Positions 24,566 to 62,273 of a stretch of DNA of 62,273 nucleotides are shown here, one piece after another (within the stretch, counting starts at the first letter, position 1; every line of letters starts with the position of its first letter). This stretch comes from Citromicrobium sp. GTDB taxonomy: Bacteria > Pseudomonadota > Alphaproteobacteria > Sphingomonadales > Sphingomonadaceae. Made by a program: the position numbers and the translations under genes. The stretch covers positions 1-62,273 of the forward strand of contig PBYQ01000020.1 of NCBI GenBank assembly GCA_002729695.1, in the 5' to 3' direction. The notes beneath the pieces were generated by a model. That model saw nothing but the letters and a program-made list of their open reading frames with translations. It ran no database searches and had not been told where the DNA came from.

Positions 24566-28994
<4,429 letters not shown>

Positions 28995-33540: not shown

Positions 33541-34959
33541 ATGCTGACGAGAAAGCAAGGCAGCCCTGCAGACAGGTCGTTCGGCGATTCCGCCGGGCTT
33601 TTCGGCTCTCTCAATTCCGAAGCGGCGCAGCGACTGGCTGTGGCGGCGGGCGACATTGCGCTGGTGCTGGACGATACCGGCGACATCCTGGACGCATCTT
33701 TCGACGCCCGCGAATTTCCCGACTTCGGCGATTGGGTGGGGGCCAACTGGCTGGAGACCGTAACGATCGAGAGCCGCCCCAAGATCATGGAAATGCTCGC
33801 TGCAGCCCGCAAGGGCGAGCCGCATCGTTGGCGCCAGGTGAACCACCCGTCGACCGATGGCGACGTGCCGCTGCGCTACACGCTGGTCCAGTTGGGCGAC
33901 GGACGCCATCTCGCGCTGGGACGCGACCTGCGCGATGTGGCCCGCACGCAGCAACGACTCCTGCAGGTCCAGCAGGCGCTGGAACGCGATTATATGCGCA
34001 TGCGCCAGCTCGAAGCGCGCTATCGCATGCTGTTCGAACGGTCGCGCGAAGCGGTGCTGATCGTCGAAGCCGACAGCCACCGTATTCGCGAGGCGAACCC
34101 GGCTGCATACCAGCTGGCCGGCGCGCGGGCGGACAGCCTGCAGGGCAAGAAGTTGGGCGGCCTGTTCGACGGCGCATCGCGCGACCGGCTGACCACGCAG
34201 CTCGGCTCCGCATTGGGATCGGACACGGCAACACCTATCAGGGCAACGCTCGCCAAAGGCGGTCGCGAGGCGCAGGTTGCCGCCACCGGCTTCAGTCAGA
34301 ATCGGCGGCAATATCTCCTGCTGATCATCACTCCCGCGGACGAACGCCCCCTGAGCGACGAGCGGCCGCTTGCCGAGATCATCGAGTCCATGCCCGACGC
34401 CTTCGTAGTGGCGGACGAGCAGATGCACATCCTGAACGTCAACGCGGCCTTTGTGGAAATGGTCGACGCGGCGAGTGAAGAACAGCTCAGCGGTCGGTCG
34501 CTGTCGCGCCTGCTCGGTCGGCCTGGCATCGATCTCGATCTGATCGCGAACCAGATCGAGAAGGACGGGGTCGCGCGCAACGTCACCAGCGTCGTTCGCA
34601 ATCTGAGCGGCACGTCCGAAGAACCGGTCGAGATTTCTGCCGTGTCTGCGGGCGAAGAGACGCGGCGCTTCGGCTTCGTTATTCGCCCGGTCGGACGGCG
34701 CTTGCGCGAGGTCACCACCGGCGGGGAAGACCTGCCGCGCTCGGTCGACGAACTGACCGATCTGGTGGGCCGGATGCCGCTCAAGGATATCGTGCGCGAG
34801 AGCACCGATCTGATCGAGCGCCTGTGTATCGAGGCGGCGCTGGTCTACACCTCGGACAATCGCGCATCGGCTGCCGAAATCCTCGGCCTGAGCCGCCAGA
34901 GCCTGTATTCTAAACTCAACCGGTACGGGCTCGGCAAGCAGGGCGAGGAAGCAGAGTAA
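33541..34959 (+). CDS. ppsR: Transcriptional regulator PpsR/CrtJ
   Basis: The 472-residue repressor of photosynthesis genes has an N-terminal PAS domain, a long Q-helix (RLLQVQQALERDYMRMRQLE), two further PAS domains (from about residue 160 and 280), and a Fis-type helix-turn-helix at the C-terminus (RASAAEILGLSRQSLYSKL). Only one cysteine is present in the whole protein, just before the HTH (IERLCIEAAL), equivalent to Cys420 of CrtJ; the second redox cysteine is missing. It is probably co-transcribed with ppaA. Confidence 0.95.
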   Translation: MLTRKQGSPADRSFGDSAGLFGSLNSEAAQRLAVAAGDIALVLDDTGDILDASFDAREFPDFGDWVGANWLETVTIESRPKIMEMLAAARKGEPHRWRQVNHPSTDGDVPLRYTLVQLGDGRHLALGRDLRDVARTQQRLLQVQQALERDYMRMRQLEARYRMLFERSREAVLIVEADSHRIREANPAAYQLAGARADSLQGKKLGGLFDGASRDRLTTQLGSALGSDTATPIRATLAKGGREAQVAATGFSQNRRQYLLLIITPADERPLSDERPLAEIIESMPDAFVVADEQMHILNVNAAFVEMVDAASEEQLSGRSLSRLLGRPGIDLDLIANQIEKDGVARNVTSVVRNLSGTSEEPVEISAVSAGEETRRFGFVIRPVGRRLREVTTGGEDLPRSVDELTDLVGRMPLKDIVRESTDLIERLCIEAALVYTSDNRASAAEILGLSRQSLYSKLNRYGLGKQGEEAE

Positions 34960-35027: not shown

Positions 35028-35933
35028 ATGAATCGTTCGGCGCTCTCACTCGGAACGTCGCCGCCGCCAGCGGCTCGCGACGCCCTTGCGCTGCTCAAAC
35101 CGATCCCCTGGTTCCCGCCGATGTGGGCCTTTGCGGTCGGCGTCGTCTCCTCCGGAGCCGCCATCGACGGTCGCTGGTTGCTGGTGGGGCTCGGCGTCCT
35201 GCTCGCCGGGCCGATGGTGTGTGGAACGAGCCAGGCGGTCAACGACTGGTTCGACCGGCATGTCGATGCCATCAACGAACCCGACCGCCCGATACCATCG
35301 GGCCGCGTGGCGGGCCGATGGGGTCTCTACATCGCCATCATCGGCACGTAGCTGTCGCTCCTCGTCGCAGCGGCGCTCGGGCCGCTGGTGCTCGCTGCCG
35401 CCGCGATCGGCCTCGCCCTCGCCTGGGCTTACAGCGCCCCGCCCTTCCGCCTGAAAGTCAGCGGCTGGTGGGGCCCGGCGGTTGTCGGGCTGACTTACGA
35501 GGGGCTGAGCTGGTTCACCGGCGCGGCAGTTATGCTCGGCGCGATGCCGTCGATGCAGGTGCTGGCGATCCTGCTGCTCTATTCGATCGGTGCGCACGGG
35601 ATCATGACCCTCAACGATTTCAAGGCGGTCGAGGGAGACCGCGCGACCGGGCTCCGCTCGCTCCCCGTCACCATGGGCGTGCGCAATGCCAGCCTGCTGG
35701 CCTGTGCGGTCATGGGGGGCGCGCAGATCCTCGTGGTTGCCCTGCTGCTTATGTGGGGCCAGCTTCTTTCCGCCGCCATCGTCGCGCTGCTGCTTGCCGG
35801 ACAGGTCGCGCTGATGCCGCGCCTTGTTCGCGACCCCGCAAAGCACGCGCCTTGGTACGGAGCGACCAGCGTGACGCTCTACGTCTTCGGCATGCTCGCA
35901 GCGGGCCTCGGCCTTGGAGGCTACTTCGGATGA
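35028..35933 (+). pseudogene. bchG: Bacteriochlorophyll synthase BchG, interrupted by an in-frame amber codon
   Basis: A UbiA-family prenyltransferase of normal length (about 301 residues) if one codon is read through. It attaches geranylgeranyl pyrophosphate to bacteriochlorophyllide a. The first Asp-rich motif (NDWFDRHVDAINEPDRPIPSG-like, positions 35238-35300) and the second (NDFKAVEGDRATGLRSLP) are intact and in the same frame. Codon 108, at 35349-35351, is TAG; the reading continues LSLLVAAALGP as in intact homologues. One base change (TGG or CAG to TAG) explains it. If real, the product is truncated inside the membrane domain. Overlaps the next gene by ATGA. Confidence 0.9.
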
Positions 35934-37252
35934 GCACCGCTGTCGCCCGAGGCTTCGGCTGGATTGCCATTGTGCGGCTCGGGCTGGTGCAGGCCGCAAT
36001 CGGCGCAATCGTGATGCTCGCCACCTCGCTGCTCAACCGGGTCATGGTGGTCGAATACGCGCTCGCCGCGGCGATACCCGCAGGGCTGGTTGCCTGGCAC
36101 TATGCCGTCCAGCTCGCCCGCCCCCTCTGGGGTCACGGGTCGGACCGGGGGCGCAAGCGGACACCGTGGATCGGCGGCGGCATGGCGGTGCTGGCTGGCG
36201 GGGCCCTGTTGGCGGTGCGGGCAACCACGCTGATGCCCGGAAGCGCCCTTGTCGGCGGCGTTCTTGCGGTCGCCGCATTCGCGATGATCGGCTTTGGCGT
36301 GGGGGCTGCGGGTACCTCGATGCTCGCCCTTCTCGCTTCCGGCGTCAGGCCCGAACGCCGCGCGGCTGCGGCCGCGGTCACATGGACGATGATGATCGCG
36401 GGCATCGTGATCGCGGCTGGCGTGGCGGGCGCGCTGCTCGATCCATTCAGCGAAGCGCGGTTGACCGCCGTTGCCGGCAGCATCGCCCTCGCCGCCTTGG
36501 GCGTCGCCTTGATTGCGATATGGCGGCTAGAACCCACAAACCCGGTAGATTTCTCCGATAAGCACAGCAGCGATGCGCCCGGTTTTGCCGAAGCTCTGCG
36601 CGAGATCATGCAGGAAACCGCCGCGCGGCGGTTCACCGTCCTGATCTTCGTCTCGATGCTCGCCTATTCGATGCAGGACCTGATCCTGGAGCCCTTCGCC
36701 GGACTGGTGTTCGGAATGACGCCGGGCGAGTCCACCAGCCTTTCCGGCATGCAACATGGCGGCGTGCTGATCGGCATGATCGTCGCCGGGGTAGGCGGAA
36801 GCGCCTTTGCCGGACGATTGCCGACCGATCTCCGGCTCTGGATCGTCGCCGGTTGCGCGGGCTCGGGGCTCGCCCTCGCGGGTCTCGCAATGGCAGCCAT
36901 CGCAGGGCCCGGCTGGCCGCTCACCGCCAATGTCTTCGCCCTCGGCCTTTGTAACGGCGTCTTCGCGGTTTCCGCGATCGGCGCAATGATGGGTCTGGCG
37001 GGCGCAGGTGAGAAAACCCGCGAAGGTGTGCGGATGGGCGTCTGGGGCGCAGCCCAGGCGATCGCCTTCGGCCTCGGCGGCCTGACCGGTGCGCTCGGTG
37101 TCGACATTGCGCGGCACCTCGCCGGACAGGACGGCGCGGCCTTCCAGCTGATCTTCGCGATCGAAGCCTGCCTGTTCATCCTCGCCGCCGTGCTTGCCGT
37201 GCAGGCGACCATCGGCGCACCCAACGCCAACAGGGGAGTGGCCCGCGCATGA
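35930..37252 (+). CDS. PucC/BCD-family membrane protein between bchG and bchP
   Basis: The 440-residue, twelve-segment MFS-type protein is related to LhaA and PucC (LLNRVMVVEYALAAAIPAGLV, ARPLWGHGSDRGRKRTPWIG, MQDLILEPFAGLVFGMTPGE). The gene in this position, between bchG and bchP, is known as orf428 or bch2 in purple bacteria; a role in delivering bacteriochlorophyll to the antenna is inferred. It starts by ATGA overlap with bchG and ends by overlap with bchP, so the bchG amber codon could reduce its translation. Confidence 0.92.
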   Translation: MSTAVARGFGWIAIVRLGLVQAAIGAIVMLATSLLNRVMVVEYALAAAIPAGLVAWHYAVQLARPLWGHGSDRGRKRTPWIGGGMAVLAGGALLAVRATTLMPGSALVGGVLAVAAFAMIGFGVGAAGTSMLALLASGVRPERRAAAAAVTWTMMIAGIVIAAGVAGALLDPFSEARLTAVAGSIALAALGVALIAIWRLEPTNPVDFSDKHSSDAPGFAEALREIMQETAARRFTVLIFVSMLAYSMQDLILEPFAGLVFGMTPGESTSLSGMQHGGVLIGMIVAGVGGSAFAGRLPTDLRLWIVAGCAGSGLALAGLAMAAIAGPGWPLTANVFALGLCNGVFAVSAIGAMMGLAGAGEKTREGVRMGVWGAAQAIAFGLGGLTGALGVDIARHLAGQDGAAFQLIFAIEACLFILAAVLAVQATIGAPNANRGVARA

Positions 37253-38442
37253 GCGAAACAATCTACGATGCTGTGGTTGTCGGCGGCGGGCCTTCGGGCG
37301 CGACGATCGCGACCGACCTCGCCCGCGCTGGCCGCCAGATCCTGCTGCTCGACCGCGCCGGGCGGATCAAGCCGTGCGGTGGGGCCGTGCCGCCACGCCT
37401 GCTCGAAGAGTTCGGCATACCGCACAGCCTGCTGGTCGCGCGCGCGCGCGCCGCACGGATGATCGCGCCGTCGGATCGGAAGGTCGACATGCCGGTCGGC
37501 GAGATCGGCTATGTCGGCATGGTCGACCGCGACGTTTTCGACGAATGGCTCCGCAAGCGCGCCGCTCAGGTCGGTGCGGAACGGCGCACCGGCACGTTCG
37601 AGCGGATCGAGCGGACCGAAGGCGAGGCACCGACGGTCTGTTATCGCGAGGCACGCGGTGGCGATATCAAACGGGTGCGCACGCGGCTGGTGATCGGGGC
37701 CGACGGCGCTCGCTCGGCAGTGGCTGCTCAGAACATCGCCGCGGCAGAGCGGATGAAATGCGTGTTCGCCTATCACGAGATCATCGAGTCCCCGCAGGGC
37801 ACCAGCGACGCGTTCGACGGGGCACGTTGCGACGTGTTCTACCAGGGCCATCTGTCGCCCGATTTCTACGCCTGGGTCTTCCCGCACGGCAAAACCGCCA
37901 GCATCGGCGTGGGCAGCGCCAACAAGGGGTTCAGCCTGCGCGGATCGGTTGCCCGGATGCGCGGCGACCTGGGCCTGGATTCCTGCGAAACGATCCGCCG
38001 CGAGGGTGCGCCGATCCCGCTGAAACCGCTCAGGCGGTGGGACAATGGCAGCGATGTGATCGTGGCCGGAGATGCGGCAGGCGTAGTCGCTCCGGCGAGC
38101 GGCGAAGGCATCTATTACGCAATGATGGGCGGGCGCTGCGTGGCGCAGGCTGCCGATGCGTTTCTGGCTACCGGACAGCCCGCTGCGCTCAGGCAGGCGC
38201 GCAAGGCCTTCATGCGTGAGCACGGCAAGGTGTTCTGGATCCTCGGCATGATGCAGCACTTCTGGTATTCGAGCGACAAGCGGCGCGAGCGTTTCGTGAC
38301 GATGTGCGCCGATCGCGACGTGCAACAGTTGACGTGGGAGGCGTACATGAACAAGCGTCTGGTCCGCGCCAAGCCCGTTGCCCATGCGCGTATCTTCCTG
38401 AAGGATTGCGCGCATCTTCTGGGGCTGAGGGCCGCCGCCTGA
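37249..38442 (+). CDS. bchP: Geranylgeranyl reductase
   Basis: The 397-residue FAD enzyme has the dinucleotide motif VVGGGPSGATIATDLARAG, PCGGAVPPRLLEEFGI, and the second FAD motif VIVAGDAAGVVAPASGEGI. It reduces the geranylgeranyl tail to phytyl in bacteriochlorophyll. It overlaps the upstream carrier (ATGA) and the tspO start (TGATG). Confidence 0.96.
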   Translation: MSETIYDAVVVGGGPSGATIATDLARAGRQILLLDRAGRIKPCGGAVPPRLLEEFGIPHSLLVARARAARMIAPSDRKVDMPVGEIGYVGMVDRDVFDEWLRKRAAQVGAERRTGTFERIERTEGEAPTVCYREARGGDIKRVRTRLVIGADGARSAVAAQNIAAAERMKCVFAYHEIIESPQGTSDAFDGARCDVFYQGHLSPDFYAWVFPHGKTASIGVGSANKGFSLRGSVARMRGDLGLDSCETIRREGAPIPLKPLRRWDNGSDVIVAGDAAGVVAPASGEGIYYAMMGGRCVAQAADAFLATGQPAALRQARKAFMREHGKVFWILGMMQHFWYSSDKRRERFVTMCADRDVQQLTWEAYMNKRLVRAKPVAHARIFLKDCAHLLGLRAAA

Positions 38443-62051: not shown

Positions 62052-62186
62052 CGCAAAGCGCCGCGTGCGGATAGGTGTCGCAAAGGCGCTTGCGGGGCGC
62101 GTACACCCCTGCTAGTGCGCCGCTTCCTCACGGGGTCCAGCCGTAAAGGCAGACCCCGGATGCAGCCCGAACATACGGGCTTGTGT

Positions 62187-62273
62187 GCGGTCGTGGCGGA
62201 ACTGGTAGACGCGCAACGTTGAGGTCGTTGTGGCCGCAAGGCCGTGGAAGTTCGAGTCTTCTCGACCGCACCA
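62187..62273 (+). tRNA. tRNA-Leu, anticodon GAG
   Basis: The 87 bases fold as a class II tRNA: acceptor GCGGTCG paired with CGACCGC, anticodon loop TTGAGGT giving GAG, a long variable arm (TGGCCGCAAGGCC), T-loop GTTCGAGTC and an encoded 3' ACCA at the window end. A small hairpin (AGCCCG-N6-CGGGCT, 62164-62181) lies just before it. The 130 bases between this and the previous gene hold no CDS. Confidence 0.95.

Follow-up and report, generated by a model that had tools for sequence, protein, structure and literature searches.

An in-frame amber codon in the only bchG gene found in a Citromicrobium sp. draft genome, probably a very recent nonsense mutation

What does a stop codon mean in the middle of a bacteriochlorophyll synthase gene that is conserved on both of its sides? 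The question is raised by bchG in a stretch of 62,273 nucleotides from Citromicrobium sp. (GCA_002729695.1, contig PBYQ01000020.1, positions 1 to 62,273 of the forward strand), the whole of which is called the window here. The bchG frame runs from an ATG at 35028 to a TGA at 35931-35933, and the TAG at codon 108 is its sole internal stop, so that the complete open reading frame expected of a BchG is missing. An earlier note on this DNA had placed an amber at codon 108 (35349-35351), and the bases, the frame and the codon number are all as it gave them. The stop is real in the sequence and ordinary in kind. The features of the frame are the following.

35028..35933, + strand: bchG, bacteriochlorophyll synthase frame, 301 codons plus TGA, broken at codon 108 (translation and family models)
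35241..35288, + strand: domain II motif NDXXDRXXDXXXXXXR at residues 72-87, before the TAG (bchG translation; motif from PMC9066304)
35349..35351, + strand: in-frame TAG (amber), codon 108, within the predicted third membrane helix (residues 96-117)
35388..35933, + strand: first in-frame open reading frame downstream of the TAG, GTG start, 181 amino acids, without domain II

With X written in place of the stop, the product of 301 residues clears the curated cut-offs of both NF005742 (380.2 bits against 313) and TIGR01476 (334.8 bits against 212.3). The domain II motif of BchG is present at residues 72-87, and a second acidic stretch lies downstream of the stop at residues 196-204. The earlier description of a UbiA-type synthase whose acidic motifs flank the stop is borne out by the translation as well as by the family models. 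The open reading frame from GTG 35388 alone reaches 222.5 bits with NF005742 and 200.6 bits with TIGR01476, below both cut-offs, and as it lacks domain II it is not a complete synthase. The intact homologue P0001 was modelled with AlphaFold2 (mean pLDDT 74.6; 36 sequences), and residue 108 falls there within helix 96-117, which, from our reading of the helix list, would be the third membrane helix. A search of the PDB with P0001 returned the chlorophyll synthase structures 9sas and 9sau, and the prenyltransferase 6m31 as a more distant match.

The order of the genes around the stop is ppsR, bchG, a PucC-family gene and bchP, and the three neighbors of bchG are full length by family models.

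33541..34959, + strand: ppsR, regulator gene upstream of bchG, full length (TIGR02040, 386.9 bits, model positions 4-442 of 442)
35930..37252, + strand: PucC-family gene, 440 amino acids, its ATG overlapping the bchG stop (ATGA) (Pfam PUCC, 320.3 bits)
37249..38442, + strand: bchP, geranylgeranyl reductase, with an ATGA overlap with the preceding PucC gene (TIGR02023, 489.5 bits)

Since the end of bchG and the beginning of the PucC gene share bases, as do those of the PucC gene and bchP, polar effects would be possible, and translation of the PucC gene may be coupled to that of bchG.

The genome to which the window belongs is a draft of 3.01 Mb in 46 contigs, 93.2% complete with 1.55% contamination. 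It holds three UbiA-type matches, among which the frame at 35028-35933 alone is BchG-like and alone carries a stop; the other two, judged by eye, are a ctaB-like gene adjoining a cytochrome oxidase gene and a ubiA-like sequence. A search for a second bchG had been proposed in the earlier note, and none was found in this 93.2% complete assembly. The lesion lies in the only copy found and would disable it, as is expected of a pseudogene.

A partial second photosynthesis cluster is seen in the same genome at 17957-22940 of contig C29 (L175 and L176), with matches to pufL, pufM, puhA, puhB and puhC. Its proteins are 31-67% identical to their counterparts in the window. The cluster was probed with 13 window proteins as queries, and no match to bchG, hemA, acsF, bchL, bchH, bchZ, bchP or the PucC gene was found in it. 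The last 92 bases of the window (62182-62273), with a tRNA-Leu(GAG) gene, match the first bases of contig C26 exactly, and contigs C6 and C29 have a tRNA-Leu(TAG) in common; in both cases the assembly seems to have broken at a repeat.

Among the named genomes scanned, Alteriqipengyuania abyssalis is the nearest relative, and none turned out to be another assembly of the species studied here. When 98 genomes were searched for bchG, nearly the whole gene was matched in six of the nine genus relatives. Eighteen bchG loci of relatives were aligned at good score, one of them (L022) over residues 69-301 only and with 11 short chance matches excluded by score, and none of the 18 has a stop. A survey of the family found a bchG match (E <= 1e-60) in 78 of 397 genomes, with an internal stop in the Citromicrobium genome itself and in none of the other 77. 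The stop at codon 108 is thus not conserved in the relatives. Three of the nine genus relatives (G003, G005 and G007) have no match to either puhA or bchG, which indicates that cells without phototrophy are viable in the genus; phototrophy is patchy there.

The comparison of codon 108 in close relatives, likewise proposed in the earlier note, gave leucine and no stop in all six bchG-bearing genus members found, three of them carrying CTG and the other three CTT. Among 168 homologues listed (P0001-P0120 and P0241-P0288), a simple pattern allowed the site to be read in 167, and the residues are A in 62, L in 49, V in 39, G in 8, I in 3, F in 2, M in 2, T in 1 and C in 1. Neither Trp nor Gln occurs in any of these 167. 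The proposal that the amber arose by one base change from TGG or CAG is therefore unsupported. TTG is the single leucine codon one base away from TAG, whereas the CTG and CTT of the genus are two or three bases away, so that a TTG intermediate, unseen here, or a multiple change would be needed. TTG makes up 101 of the 1688 leucine codons in 44 frames of the window, and it stands at 24 of the 532 window codons at which all five relatives carry CTG or CTT. The path of the codon does not tell a mutation from an error.

Codon by codon, the dN/dS of bchG against G008, G002, G004, G006 and G001 is 0.132, 0.125, 0.113, 0.147 and 0.154. These values are similar to those of the PucC gene (0.130-0.150) and above those of bchP (0.087-0.095). 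Selection on the rest of bchG thus appears normal, and the lesion is likely very young. The set for dN/dS consists of 44 window frames, some of which exceed the real gene length and some of which lack the stop owing to the coordinates chosen; the frame at 25452-26123 was dropped as it lies out of frame inside bchH. As these frames, bchG apart, were selected as open, they cannot show stops. Stops were scanned for separately by comparing the open reading frames of the five relatives with the window, counting in-frame stops only and calling flanks coding-like if dN/dS was under 0.5 on both sides. Among 147 stop positions with aligned flanks, 35 have coding-like flanks in at least one relative. 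Sorted by strand by eye, 34 of these 35 are antisense to a gene identified in the window, antisense frames passing the test too. The position at 35349 is the sole coding-strand stop in the scan, with flank dN/dS of 0.02-0.16 and coding-like flanks in five of five relatives.

An assembly with many errors was also considered and rejected, with no second coding-strand stop in the window and no stop, by eye, inside the 69 listed matches of three large families in the same genome (23 of 25, 21 of 23 and 25 of 35 matches listed; the other 14 lie outside the count).

Intact proteins nearly identical to the interrupted one exist in other sequences. P0001 (301 amino acids), a cluster with 27 members, matches the window throughout apart from residue 281 (S against G) and the stop. 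P0004 (270 amino acids, 4 members, 5 contigs) has, over its length, the same single difference at residue 281 plus the stop, and P0002 (1 member, 2 contigs) is identical across residues 28-301 except for the stop. The first residues of P0002 resemble another species of the genus. With a start like that of another species and the rest like the window, P0002 may represent a recombinant bchG or a chimeric contig. No cluster identical to the 107-residue truncated product was found among the best 120 of 605 matches, and no separate one identical to the 181-residue fragment among the best 120 of 7961 matches; in both cases larger clusters may absorb fragments. A sense codon in the reads or another intact bchG in the genome had been named in the earlier note as evidence against its reading: near-identical intact proteins do occur, in other contigs, and the genome itself yielded no second bchG.

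Given the near-identical uncut copies, a very recent knock-out is likely, a sequencing error being the less likely alternative. We consider, with rather more belief than doubt, that the TAG at codon 108 of the single bchG found is a very recent nonsense mutation at the level of the strain, which would inactivate the bacteriochlorophyll synthase. Some of the evidence runs against such a null allele. The stop is known from one assembly and no identical truncated cluster is among the matches listed, the CTG and CTT codons would have to pass through TTG or change at more than one base, and selection on the rest of bchG is not relaxed. The main rival, to which we give substantial though lesser weight, is a consensus error at this single site, caused by low coverage, mixed strains or a miscall, in an organism with an intact bchG. 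The near-identical intact proteins elsewhere, above all P0002 with its identity over residues 28-301 except at the stop, speak for such an error, as do the normal selection on the remainder of bchG and the draft state of an assembly in 46 contigs, 93.2% complete and with a 92-base overlap between the window end and C26. Against it stand the absence of any sign of a high error rate in the window or in the 69 family matches, and the number of bases involved: unless the intact codon is TTG, at least two bases would be wrong together. We prefer the recent null mutation over the error, and regard the explanations in which the stop is tolerated or old as unlikely.

The amber might be read through, by a suppressor tRNA, natural leakiness or recoding, to give full-length BchG. 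The frame downstream of the stop is open and conserved, and as the residue at the site varies among homologues (A, L, V, G, I, F, M, T or C), the inserted amino acid could be harmless; moreover, the approximately 7% of the genome estimated to be missing could hold a suppressor tRNA. However, the search for such a tRNA, again a check put forward in the earlier note, found no CUA anticodon at 42 tRNA places in the 93.2% complete genome. Two pairs among these places are repeats between contigs, ARAGORN adds one extra Gly(GCC), and two weaker candidates (E <= 10) fall below the family cut-off and outside the anticodon tally. In G004, a relative listed at 100% completeness, there are likewise 42 tRNA places, whose anticodons are those found here with Pro(TGG) and Ala(TGC) in addition. 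In the Rfam search, neither tRNA-Ile(GAT) nor tRNA-Leu(CAA) appeared in our genome (G000) or in G004, and both were possibly missed or masked. Both bchB and bchN still end in UAG, in the window as well as at the corresponding position of five of five relatives, which is not expected of a genome in which UAG no longer terminates genes; metW ends in TAG at the same place in four of five relatives. No relative examined has a stop at codon 108. The RNA over 122 bases 3' of the TAG showed no stimulatory structure (z = +0.90), 161 of 200 shuffles folding at least as well, and read-through driven by structure was rejected. Read-through is improbable in our judgment, and a novel decoding of UAG is likely not at work here.

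Still less probable is a split gene, with a second start of translation beyond the stop, GTG 35388 being one candidate, and an enzyme assembled from the two fragments. The 181-residue open frame after the TAG would suit it, and both pieces exceed the UbiA Pfam cut-off (44.6 and 53.5 bits against 34.2). The downstream piece, however, has no domain II, the break falls within a predicted membrane helix, the gene is unbroken at this point in every relative examined, and inspection by eye shows no evident ribosome-binding site ahead of GTG 35388. An older bchG pseudogene in a decaying photosynthesis gene cluster would fit the patchy distribution of phototrophy genes across the genus and family, as well as the loss of such genes reported for Citromicrobium in PMC3338782. 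Yet relaxed selection or several lesions, the marks of an old pseudogene, are not what we found: dN/dS is low (0.113-0.154), the gene has one stop, the window has no other on a coding strand, and intact near-identical proteins exist. This is the explanation we find hardest to believe.

If the TAG is a very recent nonsense mutation as we prefer, translation would end after 107 of the 301 residues, inside the third membrane helix, and would leave an enzyme without nearly two thirds of its length. Deletion of bchG in Rhodobacter sphaeroides leads to a build-up of bacteriochlorophyllide a (PMC10136183), and the activity of oat chlorophyll synthase is lost if more than one C-terminal residue is removed (PMC9066304). 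From these two results a BchG of 107 residues is predicted to be dead. By analogy with the same deletion and truncation work, a cell without pigment is expected. Untailed bacteriochlorophyllide a would accumulate, and neither the main photosynthesis cluster nor the partial one on C29 (pufLM and puhABC) would receive bacteriochlorophyll, the latter depending on the same bchG. Translation of the PucC gene may be reduced as well, since its start overlaps the stop of bchG, and the cell itself would be expected to survive as a heterotroph.

A broader reading, which we offer as a tentative and rather doubtful suggestion, is that phototrophy is caught here at the first step of its loss. The window would then represent one haplotype of a natural Alteriqipengyuania population in which bacteriochlorophyll is switched off by a single codon and phototrophs coexist with pigment-less sisters. 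Were this true, a cluster without any other coding-strand stop and a partial second reaction-centre cluster would remain behind after the loss of pigment, and phototrophs could be compared directly with their pigment-less sisters. A real stop would in any case be a natural single-codon knock-out of bacteriochlorophyll synthesis and a clean control for the worth of phototrophy to an aerobic anoxygenic phototroph. It would also bear on how phototrophy is lost in a family with bchG in 78 of the 397 genomes searched. An error, in contrast, would leave only a warning against inferring a phenotype from one draft codon.

Compared with known systems, the frame resembles the BchG and ChlG enzymes of the UbiA superfamily (NF005742, TIGR01476 and PF01040; solved homologue 9sas, "Chlorophyll a synthase") in 300 of its 301 codons, in the domain II motif and in its location in a photosynthesis gene cluster beside a PucC-family gene and bchP, and differs from them by the in-frame TAG at codon 108. 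A functional BchG is not expected here, as in the laboratory bchG deletion mutant of R. sphaeroides, which accumulates bacteriochlorophyllide a (PMC10136183), but here the change is a single codon seen in genome data. Base editing has been applied to genes of R. sphaeroides, bchG included (PMC7183636). A single search of one library on premature stops in bchG turned up no account of such a nonsense allele arising naturally in an aerobic phototroph. A natural parallel is in Citromicrobium itself, where, according to PMC3338782, the close strains JL354 and JLT1363 are with and without phototrophy, respectively. JL354 has one complete and one incomplete (pufLMC-puhCBA) cluster, as the present genome seems to have. 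JLT1363 lacks the whole cluster of approximately 37 kb, whereas in the window described here a single coding-strand stop was found.
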